DNA of 43,646 bases from Rhodospirillales bacterium (lineage in GTDB: Bacteria > Pseudomonadota > Alphaproteobacteria > BOG-932 > Roseiterribacteraceae), in assembly GCA_028291365.1 (NCBI GenBank), contig JAQGIE010000206.1, forward strand, positions 1 to 43,646, read 5' to 3'. Position 1 is the first letter of the stretch, and each line of letters begins with the position of its first letter. The notes beneath the pieces are model-generated. The model ran no database searches and was not told the DNA's origin. It saw nothing but the letters and a program-made list of their open reading frames with translations. Of the stretch, positions 7,844 through 16,437 are shown piece after piece. A program made the translations under genes and the position numbers.

Positions 7844-8752
7844 ATGCGTCTCGCCTTTCTCGGTACGCCCGAATTCGCGGTTCCGGCGCTCGACGCAATC
7901 GCGAAAGCGGGCCACGAGATCGCCTGCGTCTACAGCCAGCCGCCGCGCCCGGCTGGCCGCGGCCACAAGCTCGTCGCGTCACCGGTGCAGCACTGGGCCG
8001 AAGCCAACGGCCTCGACGTCCGCACCCCCGCCTCGCTCAAGGACGAGGCGGTGCGCGAGGCGTTCCGAAATCTGGGTCTCGACCTCGCGGTGGTCGCCGC
8101 CTACGGGCTGATCCTGCCGCGCGCCATTCTCGAGGCGCCGAAACACGGCTGTCTGAACATTCACGCGTCGTTGCTGCCGCGCTGGCGCGGTGCGGCGCCG
8201 ATTGAACGCGCCATCCTGGCCGACGACGCCGAGACCGGCGTCACGATCATGCAGATGGAAGCCGGGCTCGACACCGGCCCGATGCTGCTGACCGAGCGGC
8301 TCGCAATCGCGCCGGGCGCCACCGCGACGTCGCTGACCAGCGAGCTGTCGGCGCTGGGGGCGCACGCGATCGTGCGCGCATTGGCGGAGCTGGCGCGGTT
8401 GCAGCCCGAACCGCAGCCCGCCGACGGCGTGACCTATGCCGCCAAGCTGACGCGCGAAGAAGGCCGCATCGACTGGGGGCGGAGCGCCGGCGAAATCGAT
8501 CGCCAGGTGCGGGCGCTGAATCCGCGACCGGGCGTGTGGTTCGAAGCGAGCGGCGAACGCGTGAAGCTGTTGCGCGCAACCCAGCTGCCCGGCCCCGCCG
8601 GCGCGCCGCCGGGTACCTTGCTCGACGACGAACTGACGGTCGCATGCGGCGAGGGCGCGGTGCGCCTCACCGAATTGCAACGCGCCGGCAAAGCAGCGCA
8701 GCCGGCCTCGGACTTCCGCCGCGGCTTCACCTTGCCGCCGGTGCTGACGTGA
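7844..8752 (+). CDS. fmt: Methionyl-tRNA formyltransferase
   Basis: A 302-residue cytosolic enzyme that formylates Met-tRNAfMet using 10-formyl-tetrahydrofolate. The N-terminal Rossmann-like domain begins [15 protein letters not shown]. The catalytic region contains [21 protein letters not shown] (Asn-His and the SLLP loop, about residues 104-126) and [18 protein letters not shown]. The C-terminal domain (about 205-302) has the usual tRNA-binding fold with [21 protein letters not shown]-type sequence. It lies 1 nt from def and ends 1 nt before the stop of a convergent tiny gene. Confidence 0.96.
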
Positions 8753-12864: not shown

Positions 12865-13529
12865 GTAGCACCGACCACGCTTTCCAGCCAGTCGGTCAGA
12901 TGCGTGATGGTGATGTCGACATAGGGGCCGCGCGGCTTGGCGCCGTCGGGACCGGGCGCGCCTTCCAACCACACAGTCGTCATGCCCATCGCCTTGGCGG
13001 GTTCGAGATTGACCGCCAGATCCTCGACCATGCAGGCGCGCGCCGGGTCGATGCCGAAACGCTGCGTCAGCGTCAGATACGGGCGCGGGTCCGGCTTGGG
13101 CACGTAGTCGGCGGCGATGATGTCGAAGATTTCGACGAAGTGCCGGTCGATGCCGAGCTTGGCCAGGATGCGCGTCGCGTGGGTGCGGCTGCCGTTGGTG
13201 TAGACCAGCCGACGTCCCGGCAAGGCTTCGATCGCTGCACCGAGCCGCGGGTCGGGATCCAGCGCGGTCAGGTCGATGTCGTGCACATAGCCGAGGAAAT
13301 CGTCCGGTTCGACGCCGTCATGCAGCATCAGTCCGCGCAACGTGGTGCCGTACTGGCGGTAATAGGCGCCGCGCTTCGCGACCGCGGCCGCTTCGTCGAG
13401 TCCGAACCGGTCCATGATCCAGCGCGTCATGCGCGTCGAAACCTGAGGGAACAGATCGCTGGCGGCGGGATAGAGCGTGTTGTCGAGATCGAAGATCCAG
13501 GTCTCGACGTTTTTGAGCGCGTTGGTCAC
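12858..13529 (-). CDS. HAD-family pyrimidine 5'-nucleotidase (SDT1-like)
   Basis: A 223-residue HAD phosphatase. Motif I is FDLDNTLYP (about residues 13-21, nucleophile D14), motif II is the YTNGSR segment, motif III lysine lies in [10 protein letters not shown] and motif IV is MVEDLAVNL. The DNTLYP and YTNG pattern is that of pyrimidine 5'-nucleotidases of the SDT1/PHM8 type, which often neighbour dapD in Alphaproteobacteria. The start is GTG at 13529, overlapping the recR TGA as GTGA. It is the last gene of the five-gene operon and ends in an intrinsic terminator. Confidence 0.88.
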
Positions 13530-14119
13530 AGCGTCTTTCTGCTTTTGAGCGCGGCGGTGAGCGTACCGTCGTCGAGATAATCCAGCTCCCCGCCGATCGG
13601 CACGCCATGGCCGAGACGCGAGACCGCGACACCGGTTCCGGCCAGACGGTCGGTCACGTAATGCGCCGTCGCCTGGCCTTCGACCGTCGCGCTGGTGGCG
13701 AGAATGATTTCGCGCACCTCGCCTTCGTGGGCGCGGCGCACCAAGGCGGCGATGCGCAGATCATCGGGGCCGATTCCGTCGAGCGCCGACAAGGTGCCGC
13801 CCAGCACGTGATAGCGGCCGCGAAACGCGCCCGACCGTTCCAGCGCCCACAGATCGCCGACATCCTCGACGACGCAGATCATGTGCACGTCGCGCCCCTT
13901 GTCGGTGCACACCGCGCAGGGATCGACCGTATCGAGATTGCCGCATATCGAGCAGTCCTGCACCGACGCGGCAGCCGCCAGGATCGCATCGCCGAGCGGC
14001 TGCATCAGCTGCTCGCGCTTCTTCAACAGCGTCAGCGCCACGCGCCGCGCCGAGCGTGGCCCCAGTCCCGGCAGCTTGGCGAGCAGCTGAATCAGCTTTT
14101 CGAGATCCGCGCCGCTCAC
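13526..14119 (-). CDS. recR: Recombination mediator RecR, start rebuilt by repeat insertion
   Basis: A 197-residue RecR acting with RecF/RecO to load RecA on gaps. It has the N-terminal helix-hairpin-helix ([19 protein letters not shown]), a four-cysteine zinc finger (C56, C59, C68, C71 in [16 protein letters not shown]) and a Toprim domain ([14 protein letters not shown] onward, with [11 protein letters not shown]). The start is GTG at 14119 (VSGADLEKL). An in-frame ATG at 14164 would add 15 residues translated from a palindromic repeat and is not believed. A second, ATG-containing copy of the recR 5' end lies at 14258-14286, apparently the ancestral start. The stop overlaps the next gene by GTGA. 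Confidence 0.94.
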
Positions 14120-14285
14120 GCACACACCCCTTCCGTCATGGCCGGGCTTGTCCCGGCCATCCACGCGACGGGCTGTTCGTGTACGCGCGATTCATCGCGG
14201 CTGCGCTCTGCATCGACTCCATCGGACGTGGATGCCCGGCACGAGGCCGGGCAGTACATCAGCTTTTCGAGATCCGCGCCGCTCA
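14091..14285. repeat. REPIN-like insertion flanked by exact 28-bp direct repeats
   Basis: The 28-bp sequence beginning ATCAGCTTTTCGAGATCC occurs exactly at 14091-14118 (inside recR) and again at 14258-14285. Between the copies are two inversely oriented palindromes: a 9-bp stem ATGGCCGGG (14138-14160) and an 8-bp stem TGCCCGGC (14233-14253), each flanked on the inner side by CCACG or CGTGG. This is the geometry of a REP doublet (REPIN). It differs in sequence from the family at 5784 and 26856. The repeat period is 167 nt. Confidence 0.85.
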
Positions 14286-14286
14286 T
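14116..14286 (-). CDS. Chimeric 56-codon ORF: recR 5' end plus repeat
   Basis: It begins at the ATG 14286 that overlaps the FAH-family stop by 4 nt. It reads [10 protein letters not shown] (the original recR start), continues through the inserted palindromes (containing [11 protein letters not shown]) and ends in a TGA at 14116-14118 that overlaps the recR GTG by 4 nt. It has no expected function. If translated it would act as a coupling relay from the upstream gene to recR. Existence as an ORF is seen directly; translation is inference. Confidence 0.4.
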
Positions 14287-14969
14287 CGCACGTCGAGTTG
14301 CAACTCGCCGACGCCCTCGACCTTGCCCAGCAACTTGTCACCGTGCCGCACCGGGCCGACACCCTCGGGCGTGCCCGTGAAGATCAGATCGCCAGGGGCG
14401 AGCGCCACGAAGCGCGACAGCGCCGCGATCGTTTCGGGGATCGACCAGATCAGATCGGCAAGATCGCCGCGCTGCTTCTCGACGCCGTTGATCGACAGCG
14501 CGATCACACCTTTGTCGGGATGGCCGATCTTCGCCGCCGGCACCAGCGGCGAGATCGGCGCCGACTGGTCGAACGCTTTCGCCATGTCCCAGGGATGCGC
14601 CTTGGCCTTGAAACCTGCCTGCAGATCGCGCCGTGTCAGGTCAAGGCCGACGCCATAGCCCCAGACATGCGACAGCGCATCCTCGGTCGCGATGTCGGCG
14701 CCGCCTTTGCCGATCGCGACCACGAGTTCAATTTCGTGATGCAGGTCCTGCGTCGCACGCGGATAGGCGATCGAGGCCGGCGTCGGCACCAGCGCATCGG
14801 CGGGTTTGGTGAAGAAGAACGGCGGTTCGCGCGTATCGGCGCCCATCTCGCGCGCATGGGCGGCGTAGTTGCGGCCGACGCAGAAGACGCGGCGTACGGG
14901 AAACCGCGCGCTGTCGCCAGCGACCGGCAGCGTGGTCGGCGTCGGTGCGGGAATGACGGTGTCGTTCAT
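14283..14969 (-). CDS. Fumarylacetoacetate hydrolase (FAH) family protein
   Basis: A 228-residue metal-dependent C-C bond hydrolase or decarboxylase of the FAH fold. FCVGRNYAAHAREMG (about residues 29-43) and the metal-site HHEIELVVAIGKGG (about 77-90) with the downstream GLDLTRRD aspartate are conserved, as is IFTGTPEGVGPV. The closest functional types are fumarylpyruvate hydrolases and acylpyruvases; the substrate cannot be fixed. It overlaps the upstream oxidoreductase by 4 nt. Its TGA overlaps an ATG that was probably the original recR start. Confidence 0.85.
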   Translation of the reverse strand: MNDTVIPAPTPTTLPVAGDSARFPVRRVFCVGRNYAAHAREMGADTREPPFFFTKPADALVPTPASIAYPRATQDLHHEIELVVAIGKGGADIATEDALSHVWGYGVGLDLTRRDLQAGFKAKAHPWDMAKAFDQSAPISPLVPAAKIGHPDKGVIALSINGVEKQRGDLADLIWSIPETIAALSRFVALAPGDLIFTGTPEGVGPVRHGDKLLGKVEGVGELQLDVR

Positions 14970-15670
14970 GAGACGGGACTCGGTGTGGGGCTGAGATCGG
15001 CAAAGAGACGGTCGTGCGGCAGGCCGCGCGCGAACAGCAGGTCGCGCACATGCGCCACCATCACCGGTGGCCCCGCCAGATAGGCGTCGAACCGCGCGAG
15101 ATCGGGCAGGTCGGCGATCACGACATCGCCGATCAGGCCGGTGCGGTGTTCGGTCGGTGCATCCGGCGCCGACAGAACCGCAACGAAACGAAAATTGGCA
15201 TGACGCGCCGCCAACGCGTCGAAGCGCGCCTGGCCATAGAGGTCGCGCTCGGTGCGCACGCCGAAATAGAGCCGCACCTCGCGCGTCGGATTGCGCGCCA
15301 GTGCGGTTTCGATGATCGAGCCCATCGGCGCCAGGCCCGAGCCGCCGGCGATCGCGAGCAGCGGACGCGTCGACCTTTCGTCCAGCACCGCGTCGCCGAA
15401 CGGCCCCTGCAGCCAGACGTTGTCGCCGGGCTTCAGGTCGCGGCAGGCATGCGCGCTGGCGCCGGTACCGATGTCGCGAATATGAAACTCGACATGCTCG
15501 CTGCCGGGCACCGAGGCGATCGAATAGTCGCGCGGCGCGTGGCCATGGAACCGCAGCCGCGCATACTGGCCGGCCTGGAAATCGAAAGCCCGATCGGGGC
15601 GCAGGCGCAGGATCCGGATGTCGTGCGTCGCGGGTTCGATCGCGACGACGCGCGCACCAATCTCGCTCAT
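14966..15670 (-). CDS. FAD/NAD(P)H flavin reductase-like oxidoreductase
   Basis: A 234-residue protein of the ferredoxin-NADP reductase superfamily. The FAD-binding beta barrel holds HAPRDYSIAS (R-x-Y-S, about residues 54-63), and the pyridine-nucleotide domain contains IAGGSGLAPMGSII (about 113-126). No 2Fe-2S cluster domain is attached, so it resembles the reductase part of phenol hydroxylase or CDP-6-deoxy-glucoseen reductase, or a Fre-type flavin reductase. The start is the ATG at 15670 (MSEIGARVV), overlapping the upstream stop by ATGA; the longer open frame is a shadow. The electron acceptor is unknown. Confidence 0.82.
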   Translation of the reverse strand: MSEIGARVVAIEPATHDIRILRLRPDRAFDFQAGQYARLRFHGHAPRDYSIASVPGSEHVEFHIRDIGTGASAHACRDLKPGDNVWLQGPFGDAVLDERSTRPLLAIAGGSGLAPMGSIIETALARNPTREVRLYFGVRTERDLYGQARFDALAARHANFRFVAVLSAPDAPTEHRTGLIGDVVIADLPDLARFDAYLAGPPVMVAHVRDLLFARGLPHDRLFADLSPTPSPVS

Positions 15671-16437
15671 GCCGCGTGCCGCAGCTTGGCCGCGCGGGCC
15701 CGCACCGCCTGCGCGAATCCGTCGAACAAGGCGCGGCTCACCGCGTCTTCGGCGAAGCGATATTCGGGGTGCCATTGCACGCCGACGGCAAAGTTGGATG
15801 CCTGCGCGACACGAACCGCTTCAACCGTGCCGTCTTCGGCGGTCGCCTCGACCTCGAGGCCGGGCGCGAGCCGGTCGATCGCCTGCCAATGGACCGAATT
15901 GACCGTCGCGTGTTCGGTGCCGAGCGCAGTCGCGAGCATGCCGCCGGGCGCGAGTTGCACGCGATGCGACGGTCCATAGCGTACGTCGAGCGGCGCATCG
16001 AGCGGCGCACGGTGATCGCGGCGGCCTTCTTCCTCGTGCACGCGTTCGTGCAGCGTGCCGCCCAGCGCGACGTTCAGCTCCTGCACGCCGCGGCAGATCG
16101 CGAGCAGCGGCACGCCCGCCGCCAGCGCGGCGCGGATCAGCGGCAAGGTCGAGGCGTCGCGCCGCTGGTCCTTCAGCGTGCCGTCGGACGAGGCGCCGTT
16201 CCCATAGCGTGCGGGATCGACGTTGGAGGGGCTGCCGGGCAGCAGCAGCCCGTCGATCCGTGCCAGCAGCGCTTCGATCGGCAGTGCCTCGGCCAGCGCC
16301 GGAATCAGCACGGGCACGGCGCCGAGCGCGCCGGTGATGGCGGTCACGTATTTCTCGTTGACGATGTGGAAGGGCGTCCCGGCGAGATAGCGAAAATCAG
16401 CCGGAATGCCGACCAAAAGGGCCGGGTCCATGGTCAT
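15667..16437 (-). CDS. Gamma-glutamyl-gamma-aminobutyrate hydrolase family (peptidase C26, PuuD-like)
   Basis: About 256 residues, class I glutamine amidotransferase fold. The nucleophile cysteine is in LAICRGVQELNVALGG (about residues 112-127) and the catalytic histidine is in GVQWHPEYRF, as in PuuD-type hydrolases that cleave gamma-glutamyl amides such as gamma-glutamyl-GABA. LLLPGSPSNVDPARYG is typical of the family. Three in-frame starts are close together (GTG 16449, ATG 16437, ATG 16431) without a decisive ribosome binding site; ATG 16437 is used here. It is the first gene of the overlapping five-gene operon that ends with the nucleotidase. Confidence 0.85.
   Translation of the reverse strand: MTMDPALLVGIPADFRYLAGTPFHIVNEKYVTAITGALGAVPVLIPALAEALPIEALLARIDGLLLPGSPSNVDPARYGNGASSDGTLKDQRRDASTLPLIRAALAAGVPLLAICRGVQELNVALGGTLHERVHEEEGRRDHRAPLDAPLDVRYGPSHRVQLAPGGMLATALGTEHATVNSVHWQAIDRLAPGLEVEATAEDGTVEAVRVAQASNFAVGVQWHPEYRFAEDAVSRALFDGFAQAVRARAAKLRHAA

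Follow-up and report, generated by a model that had tools for sequence, protein, structure and literature searches.

Insert and repeats at the recR junction

The contig JAQGIE010000206.1 of a Rhodospirillales bacterium (assembly GCA_028291365.1; its 43,646 nt are called the window here) carries, on the minus strand, an operon in the order peptidase C26, oxidoreductase, FAH-family gene, recR and HAD hydrolase. The gene names agree with the Pfam matches (Peptidase_C26, oxidoreductase domains, FAA_hydrolase, RecR domains and HAD hydrolase). The FAH/recR junction alone carries an insert, two inverted palindromes lying between exact direct repeats. The remaining three junctions are 4 nt overlaps, as a first-pass annotation made from the sequence alone had stated: ATGA at 14969-14966, GTGA at 13529-13526 and, from the gene coordinates and provided that the oxidoreductase starts at MSEIG, ATGA at 15670-15667. 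The main features of the junction are as follows.

14283-14969, minus strand: FAH-family gene (open reading frame (ORF) list and Pfam); its stop TGA overlaps the old recR ATG
14258-14285, minus strand: outer 28 bp repeat copy, with the FAH stop and first recR codons; a non-functional copy of the recR 5′ end, single in the related genome G001
14119-14257, no strand: 139 bp insert between the repeats, a dimer of repetitive extragenic palindromes (REPs) plus some 15 nt of outer flank towards recR; absent from G001
14091-14118, minus strand: inner 28 bp repeat copy, the 5′ end of the present recR gene
13526-14119, minus strand: recR, present start GTG at 14119 (ORF list and Pfam)

The first-pass observation of a palindrome pair with exact direct repeats at this junction is confirmed. 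The repeats are 28 bp long and 167 nt apart, start to start; the outer copy had been placed at 14258-14286, which exceeds its extent by one base. The A of the old ATG, at 14286, is not part of the duplicated segment, and for that reason the inner recR start reads GTG. Between two 250 nt flanks, about 2e-11 matches of 28 bp are expected by chance (assumed match probability 0.28 per base). In a gapped alignment the similarity runs five bases further (CGCAC) beyond a one-base gap, an extension with a chance of about 0.3% under the same simple model, so that 33-34 bp may have been duplicated, with later loss of a single base.

Comparison with related genomes

The window genome (G000) was compared with G001, the sole other genome of the same genus in the comparison. 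The parts of G001 matched by the FAH half and by the recR half of the query share exactly 28 bases (G001:C1:2319677-2319704), and the junction there holds one copy of the segment with no palindromes between FAH and recR. Relative to G001, the window has an insertion with a junction duplication at the place that had been predicted. The G001 segment differs at 3 of 28 sites from the two identical copies of the window. The predicted direct ATGA overlap in a relative lacking the insert was not found, since in G001 10 nt separate the FAH TGA from the recR ATG. Across this stop/start lies an 11 nt repeat, 91% identical at 14 nt spacing, without palindromes. Two copies lacking palindromes had been named beforehand as speaking against a single insertion-duplication event, and this near-tandem copy of the stop/start corresponds to that state in part. 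Judged from the aligned junctions, the window state could be reached from that of G001 by a 14 nt deletion, and the reverse by a near-tandem duplication with changes; an ancestral FAH/recR overlap is plausible.

No further case of FAH adjoining recR was found. The order is represented by five genomes, and none of 80 FAH relatives, inspected over up to 3 kb on each side, had a recR match; only the loci of G000 and G001 had matches to both genes. In these two genomes the peptidase gene and recR are separated by the oxidoreductase and FAH genes (window 14283-15775; L013, L020). ORF reading places recR directly after the peptidase gene in G002 and G003, of the sister genus, and for this reason they are uninformative as an outgroup.

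The palindromes are CGTC-tagged REPs

14134-14163, plus strand: left REP, an intact CGTC-REP with tag CGTC, 9 bp stem, 5 nt loop and CCA tail pointing inward
14229-14257, minus strand: right REP in opposite orientation, with 8 bp stem, CCA inward, and an outer tag that is altered or truncated (GTAC in place of the GTCA of CGTCA)

The left palindrome reads CGTC-ATGGCCGGG-CTTGT-CCCGGCCAT-CCA and has every characteristic of a CGTC-REP (tag, 8-9 bp stem beginning AT, 4-5 nt loop, CCA tail); the right one agrees in stem, loop and tail, with an altered tag. The two fold into 9 bp and 8 bp hairpins (DNA fold z -3.96). The locus has at least 48 BLAST matches in G000, itself included, and the REP pattern gave 23 matches in this genome versus none on a reversed control. 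Thirteen inverted dimers of 83-123 nt occur among the G000 REP places listed, and of 385 genomes of the class, 9 had a match to a strict dimer pattern.

CGTC-tagged REPs were described as a family, mostly of alphaproteobacteria and said to be without a dedicated transposase, by Di Nocera, De Gregorio and Rocco (2013; PMC3733652). The recR insert shares with the dimers described there the CGTC tag, the stem starting with AT, the 5 nt loop, the CCA tail and the inverted arrangement. It differs in being flanked, at a gene junction, by a 28 bp duplication; the main text of that paper nowhere uses the word 'duplication'. Some of the Rickettsia palindromic elements are CGTC REPs according to the same text. 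They resemble the present case in that palindromes enter or touch coding sequence and the gene stays usable; unlike in those elements, recR is not lengthened, and the insert sits upstream of its start codon. In REPINs with a RAYT, as presented in the available text of Bertels and Rainey (2011; PMC3116915), the insertion unit is two inverted REPs; at recR, too, two inverted REPs were inserted as one unit, but there is no Y1_Tnp match in G000 and the insertion bears long direct repeats. No report of long target duplications at REPs was found in the literature searched, a search that lay mostly outside subscription journals. The palindromes are ordinary for these bacteria, and it is the long copied segment that is unusual.

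Flanking duplications at other REP sites

At 21 REP sites of G000 the flanks on the two sides, each of up to 250 nt, were compared with each other, with hand-set limits and clusters merged. Two sites stand out, C268 (score 76) and the recR site (30), and the other 19 score 8-11; the highest score among 412 mismatched left/right pairs was 21. In other genomes, 21 sites, which also underwent an ungapped test, score 8-14 (the highest of 420 control pairs scored 21), and five more, which had no control of their own, score 8-12. No long duplication was found at any of these 26 outside sites. A general long target duplication of REP dimers is rejected, since 2 of the 21 sites in G000 and none of the 26 outside have one. 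The outside set includes one G001 site (L202), had one site of the window genome (L203) removed, and has some flanks shorter than 250 nt at contig ends. Two G000 places, C45 and C247 near 5856, were left out of the test, and the lists may not hold all copies. Six others outside the 21 (C113, C124, C82, C167, C269 and C123) come from an earlier scan, in which their best score was at most 10. High scores in the earlier scan at C268a (67) and C153a/b (14 and 19) were set aside as repeats of neighbouring REP units rather than target copies.

At C268 the 3′ end of a permease gene is present twice, as copies of about 98 nt on either side of a REP dimer (98 alignment columns, with a 7 nt deletion in one copy), and the counterpart in G001 has one copy and no REP dimer. 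Adjoining the duplicated permease end are inverted pairs of a second palindrome family (TTCCCCGCGAAAGCGGGGATCCA), with a repeated unit at 77 nt spacing (L173, G000:C268, 9523-9726). Elsewhere in L173 (4720-4986) an 85 nt imperfect direct repeat is common to two neighbouring REP units, dimer spacer included, a local amplification of the REP unit.

The C76 element occupies a junction whose G001 counterpart is, as read by eye, an ATGA overlap; stop and start are both kept, perhaps because ATGA is contained in the REP end itself. The downstream start of this REP dimer junction (L166, record positions 8444-8530 of G000:C76, with L188), ATGACG, seems to be derived from the REP end. A short duplication is not claimed at C76, where the REP end may itself supply the gene start. 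At nine further sites (C16, C36, C134, C171b, C195, C200, C207, C234 and C41) the insertion ends could not be placed against G001 because the spacer was too diverged or held other palindromes or other DNA (C16 and C234 being seen in part).

Search for a mobilising enzyme

Mobilisation by a RAYT had been proposed for the insert. The Y1_Tnp profile (PF01797) had no match in G000 (completeness given as 100%) or G001, in a search confined to this one transposase family. It matched in two of five genomes of the order and in 4 of 12 other genomes picked as REP carriers, or 4 of the 14 carriers searched when G000 and G001 are counted. In the control, 5 of 14 genomes, including E. coli and Caulobacter, had a match to the profile. 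G002 and G003 belong to both sets, G293 and G056 are just 78% and 87% complete, and the carrier set left out the REP carriers G028 and G046. With no cognate Y1 gene in G000, a REPIN moved by a RAYT is not supported. The IS200/IS605 family, proposed relatives of REP-moving enzymes, is reported without larger target site duplications in the available text of PMC2817692, and in this the recR case is unlike that family.

The irregular ends of the recR insert (one side has about 15 nt of flank, the other an altered tag), together with the different duplication lengths (28 and 98), disfavour a fixed enzymatic duplication. Miniature inverted-repeat transposable elements of the DDE type make a short target duplication of constant length. 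Such an element does not fit the repeats of 28 bp and about 98 nt at two sites, with none above control at 19 of 21.

A Ku match (PF02735) in G000 lies beside an ORF with an ATP-dependent ligase domain (PF01068) that runs off the locus, and G001 has two Ku matches. Ku and a LigD-like ligase, the pair looked for as a sign of end-joining capture, are thus both present in G000.

Translation across the junction

14116-14286, minus strand: 56-codon ORF that begins at the old recR ATG, crosses the insert and ends in a TGA overlapping the recR GTG; no Pfam match
14127-14134, minus strand: GGAAGGGG, a Shine-Dalgarno-like purine tract 7 nt before the GTG, located by eye, of putative function

The 56-codon ORF exists as annotated, and its TGA overlaps the recR GTG at 14119-14117. 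The frame through the insert is also open in 33% of mononucleotide-shuffled inserts, and the closing TGA belongs to the repeat, so the arrangement needs no selection. The RNA folds just slightly better than shuffles (z -2.15). The view that translational coupling was recreated is weakened both by the openness of shuffled inserts and by the Shine-Dalgarno-like GGAAGGGG before the GTG.

The REP ends scored for purines were L165-L184, L146, L152, L153, the window and L201-L222. As descriptive fractions, purines make up 0.63-1.0 per position of the first 11 nt after CATGAC at 35 REP ends of G000 (the recR one included) and 0.57-1.0 at 35 ends of other genomes; at positions 16-30 they fall in the ranges 0.31-0.63 and 0.40-0.63, respectively. 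Purine-rich ends in both sets indicate that the GGAAGGGG tract is typical of the element or its target. Several sites (for example C200, C40b and C234) have a downstream ATG at usable distance after a Shine-Dalgarno-like tract.

If the missing A were restored in the inner copy, the old ATG would read in frame into recR (168 nt), and the extra five-base match hints that it once did so. It is conceivable, though doubtful, that CGTC-REP dimers are built for tightly packed operons: the outward CATGAC would offer a ready ATGA, the purine stretch a ribosome binding site, and an occasional long duplication would restore the junction, making insertion translationally neutral. In its first state recR may even have carried 56 additional residues in frame, an extension that was shortened again once the A of the inner ATG was lost.

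Origin of the arrangement

We tentatively favour an origin in which a CGTC-REP dimer was inserted with a 28 bp duplication (possibly 33-34 bp, one base being lost later) by a rare repair event not involving a Y1 enzyme, and was kept since FAH and recR stay whole. Its directly observed elements are the repeats, the insert, the palindrome-free single-copy state of G001 and the second case in G000 (about 98 nt). Two nicks on opposite strands, 28 bp apart, would give a staggered break; both overhangs would be filled in, and Ku with its ligase would then join them to a free fragment carrying the REPs; a template switch could have had the same effect in place of the joining. An insertion at a stop/start overlap is harmless only if both signals survive, and a duplicating insertion preserves both; at this junction it would leave FAH and recR intact. 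The survival of both signals at C76 agrees with such selective retention. Translation of recR would start at the GTG with the help of GGAAGGGG, which the insert supplies, and ribosomes that finish the 56-codon ORF might re-initiate there as well. It is simpler to account for the retention of the insertion than for the route by which it arose.

Several observations weigh against this account. The polarity of the insertion rests on one in-genus relative, G001, and the near-tandem stop/start copy there means that the duplication may predate the REP insertion. Two cases among 21 sites are few. At C76 the flank test detected no long repeat though both signals survive. The whole insert is unmatched elsewhere in the assembly, the longest other match among the BLAST matches listed being 76% over 124 nt. 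The presence of Ku is compatible with end joining and proves nothing about the recR event.

A serious though less likely rival, strengthened by the G001 repeat, is a two-step history in which the stop/start was first duplicated in tandem, freeing the junction, and a REP dimer then inserted between the copies by its ordinary route, without duplication. The 11 nt repeat of G001 covers the same stop/start at 14 nt spacing without palindromes, the repeats of the window and of G001 start within a few bases of each other, and REP dimers normally lack a flanking duplication. Such a route requires the insertion to land exactly between the copies; a full 28 bp double without insert was not seen, and C268 shows the same kind of arrangement at a very different length. 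The same G001 repeat could also be what remained after a deletion from within the outer to the inner copy, G001 then being the derived state of an ancestral insertion. We regard this as improbable, as it requires a long-lived insertion in the ancestor and the 28 bp copies of the window are still identical though G001 differs from them at 3 of 28 sites.

An unrecognised transposase other than Y1, moving CGTC-REPs with long and variable target duplications, would account for the two long duplications in G000 and agrees with the description of this family, in the available text of PMC3733652, as lacking a dedicated one. Set against it are the absence of long repeats at all 26 outside sites and of repeats above control at 19 of 21 sites in G000, the unequal lengths of 28 and 98 and the irregularity of one end; it, too, is improbable. 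An assembly or contamination artefact might be suspected in a draft genome of 271 contigs; it is very improbable, because the unique insert is internal to a contig of 43.6 kb, and both flanking genes have matches in G001 with their order unchanged.

Overall, the first-pass interpretation is partly supported. How REPs spread without a transposase is posed as an open question in the available text of PMC3733652, and the recR insertion, with its empty site and its long, clean duplication, is the footprint of at least one possible route. The case also suggests that selection for intact stop and start signals may decide which insertions into operons survive.
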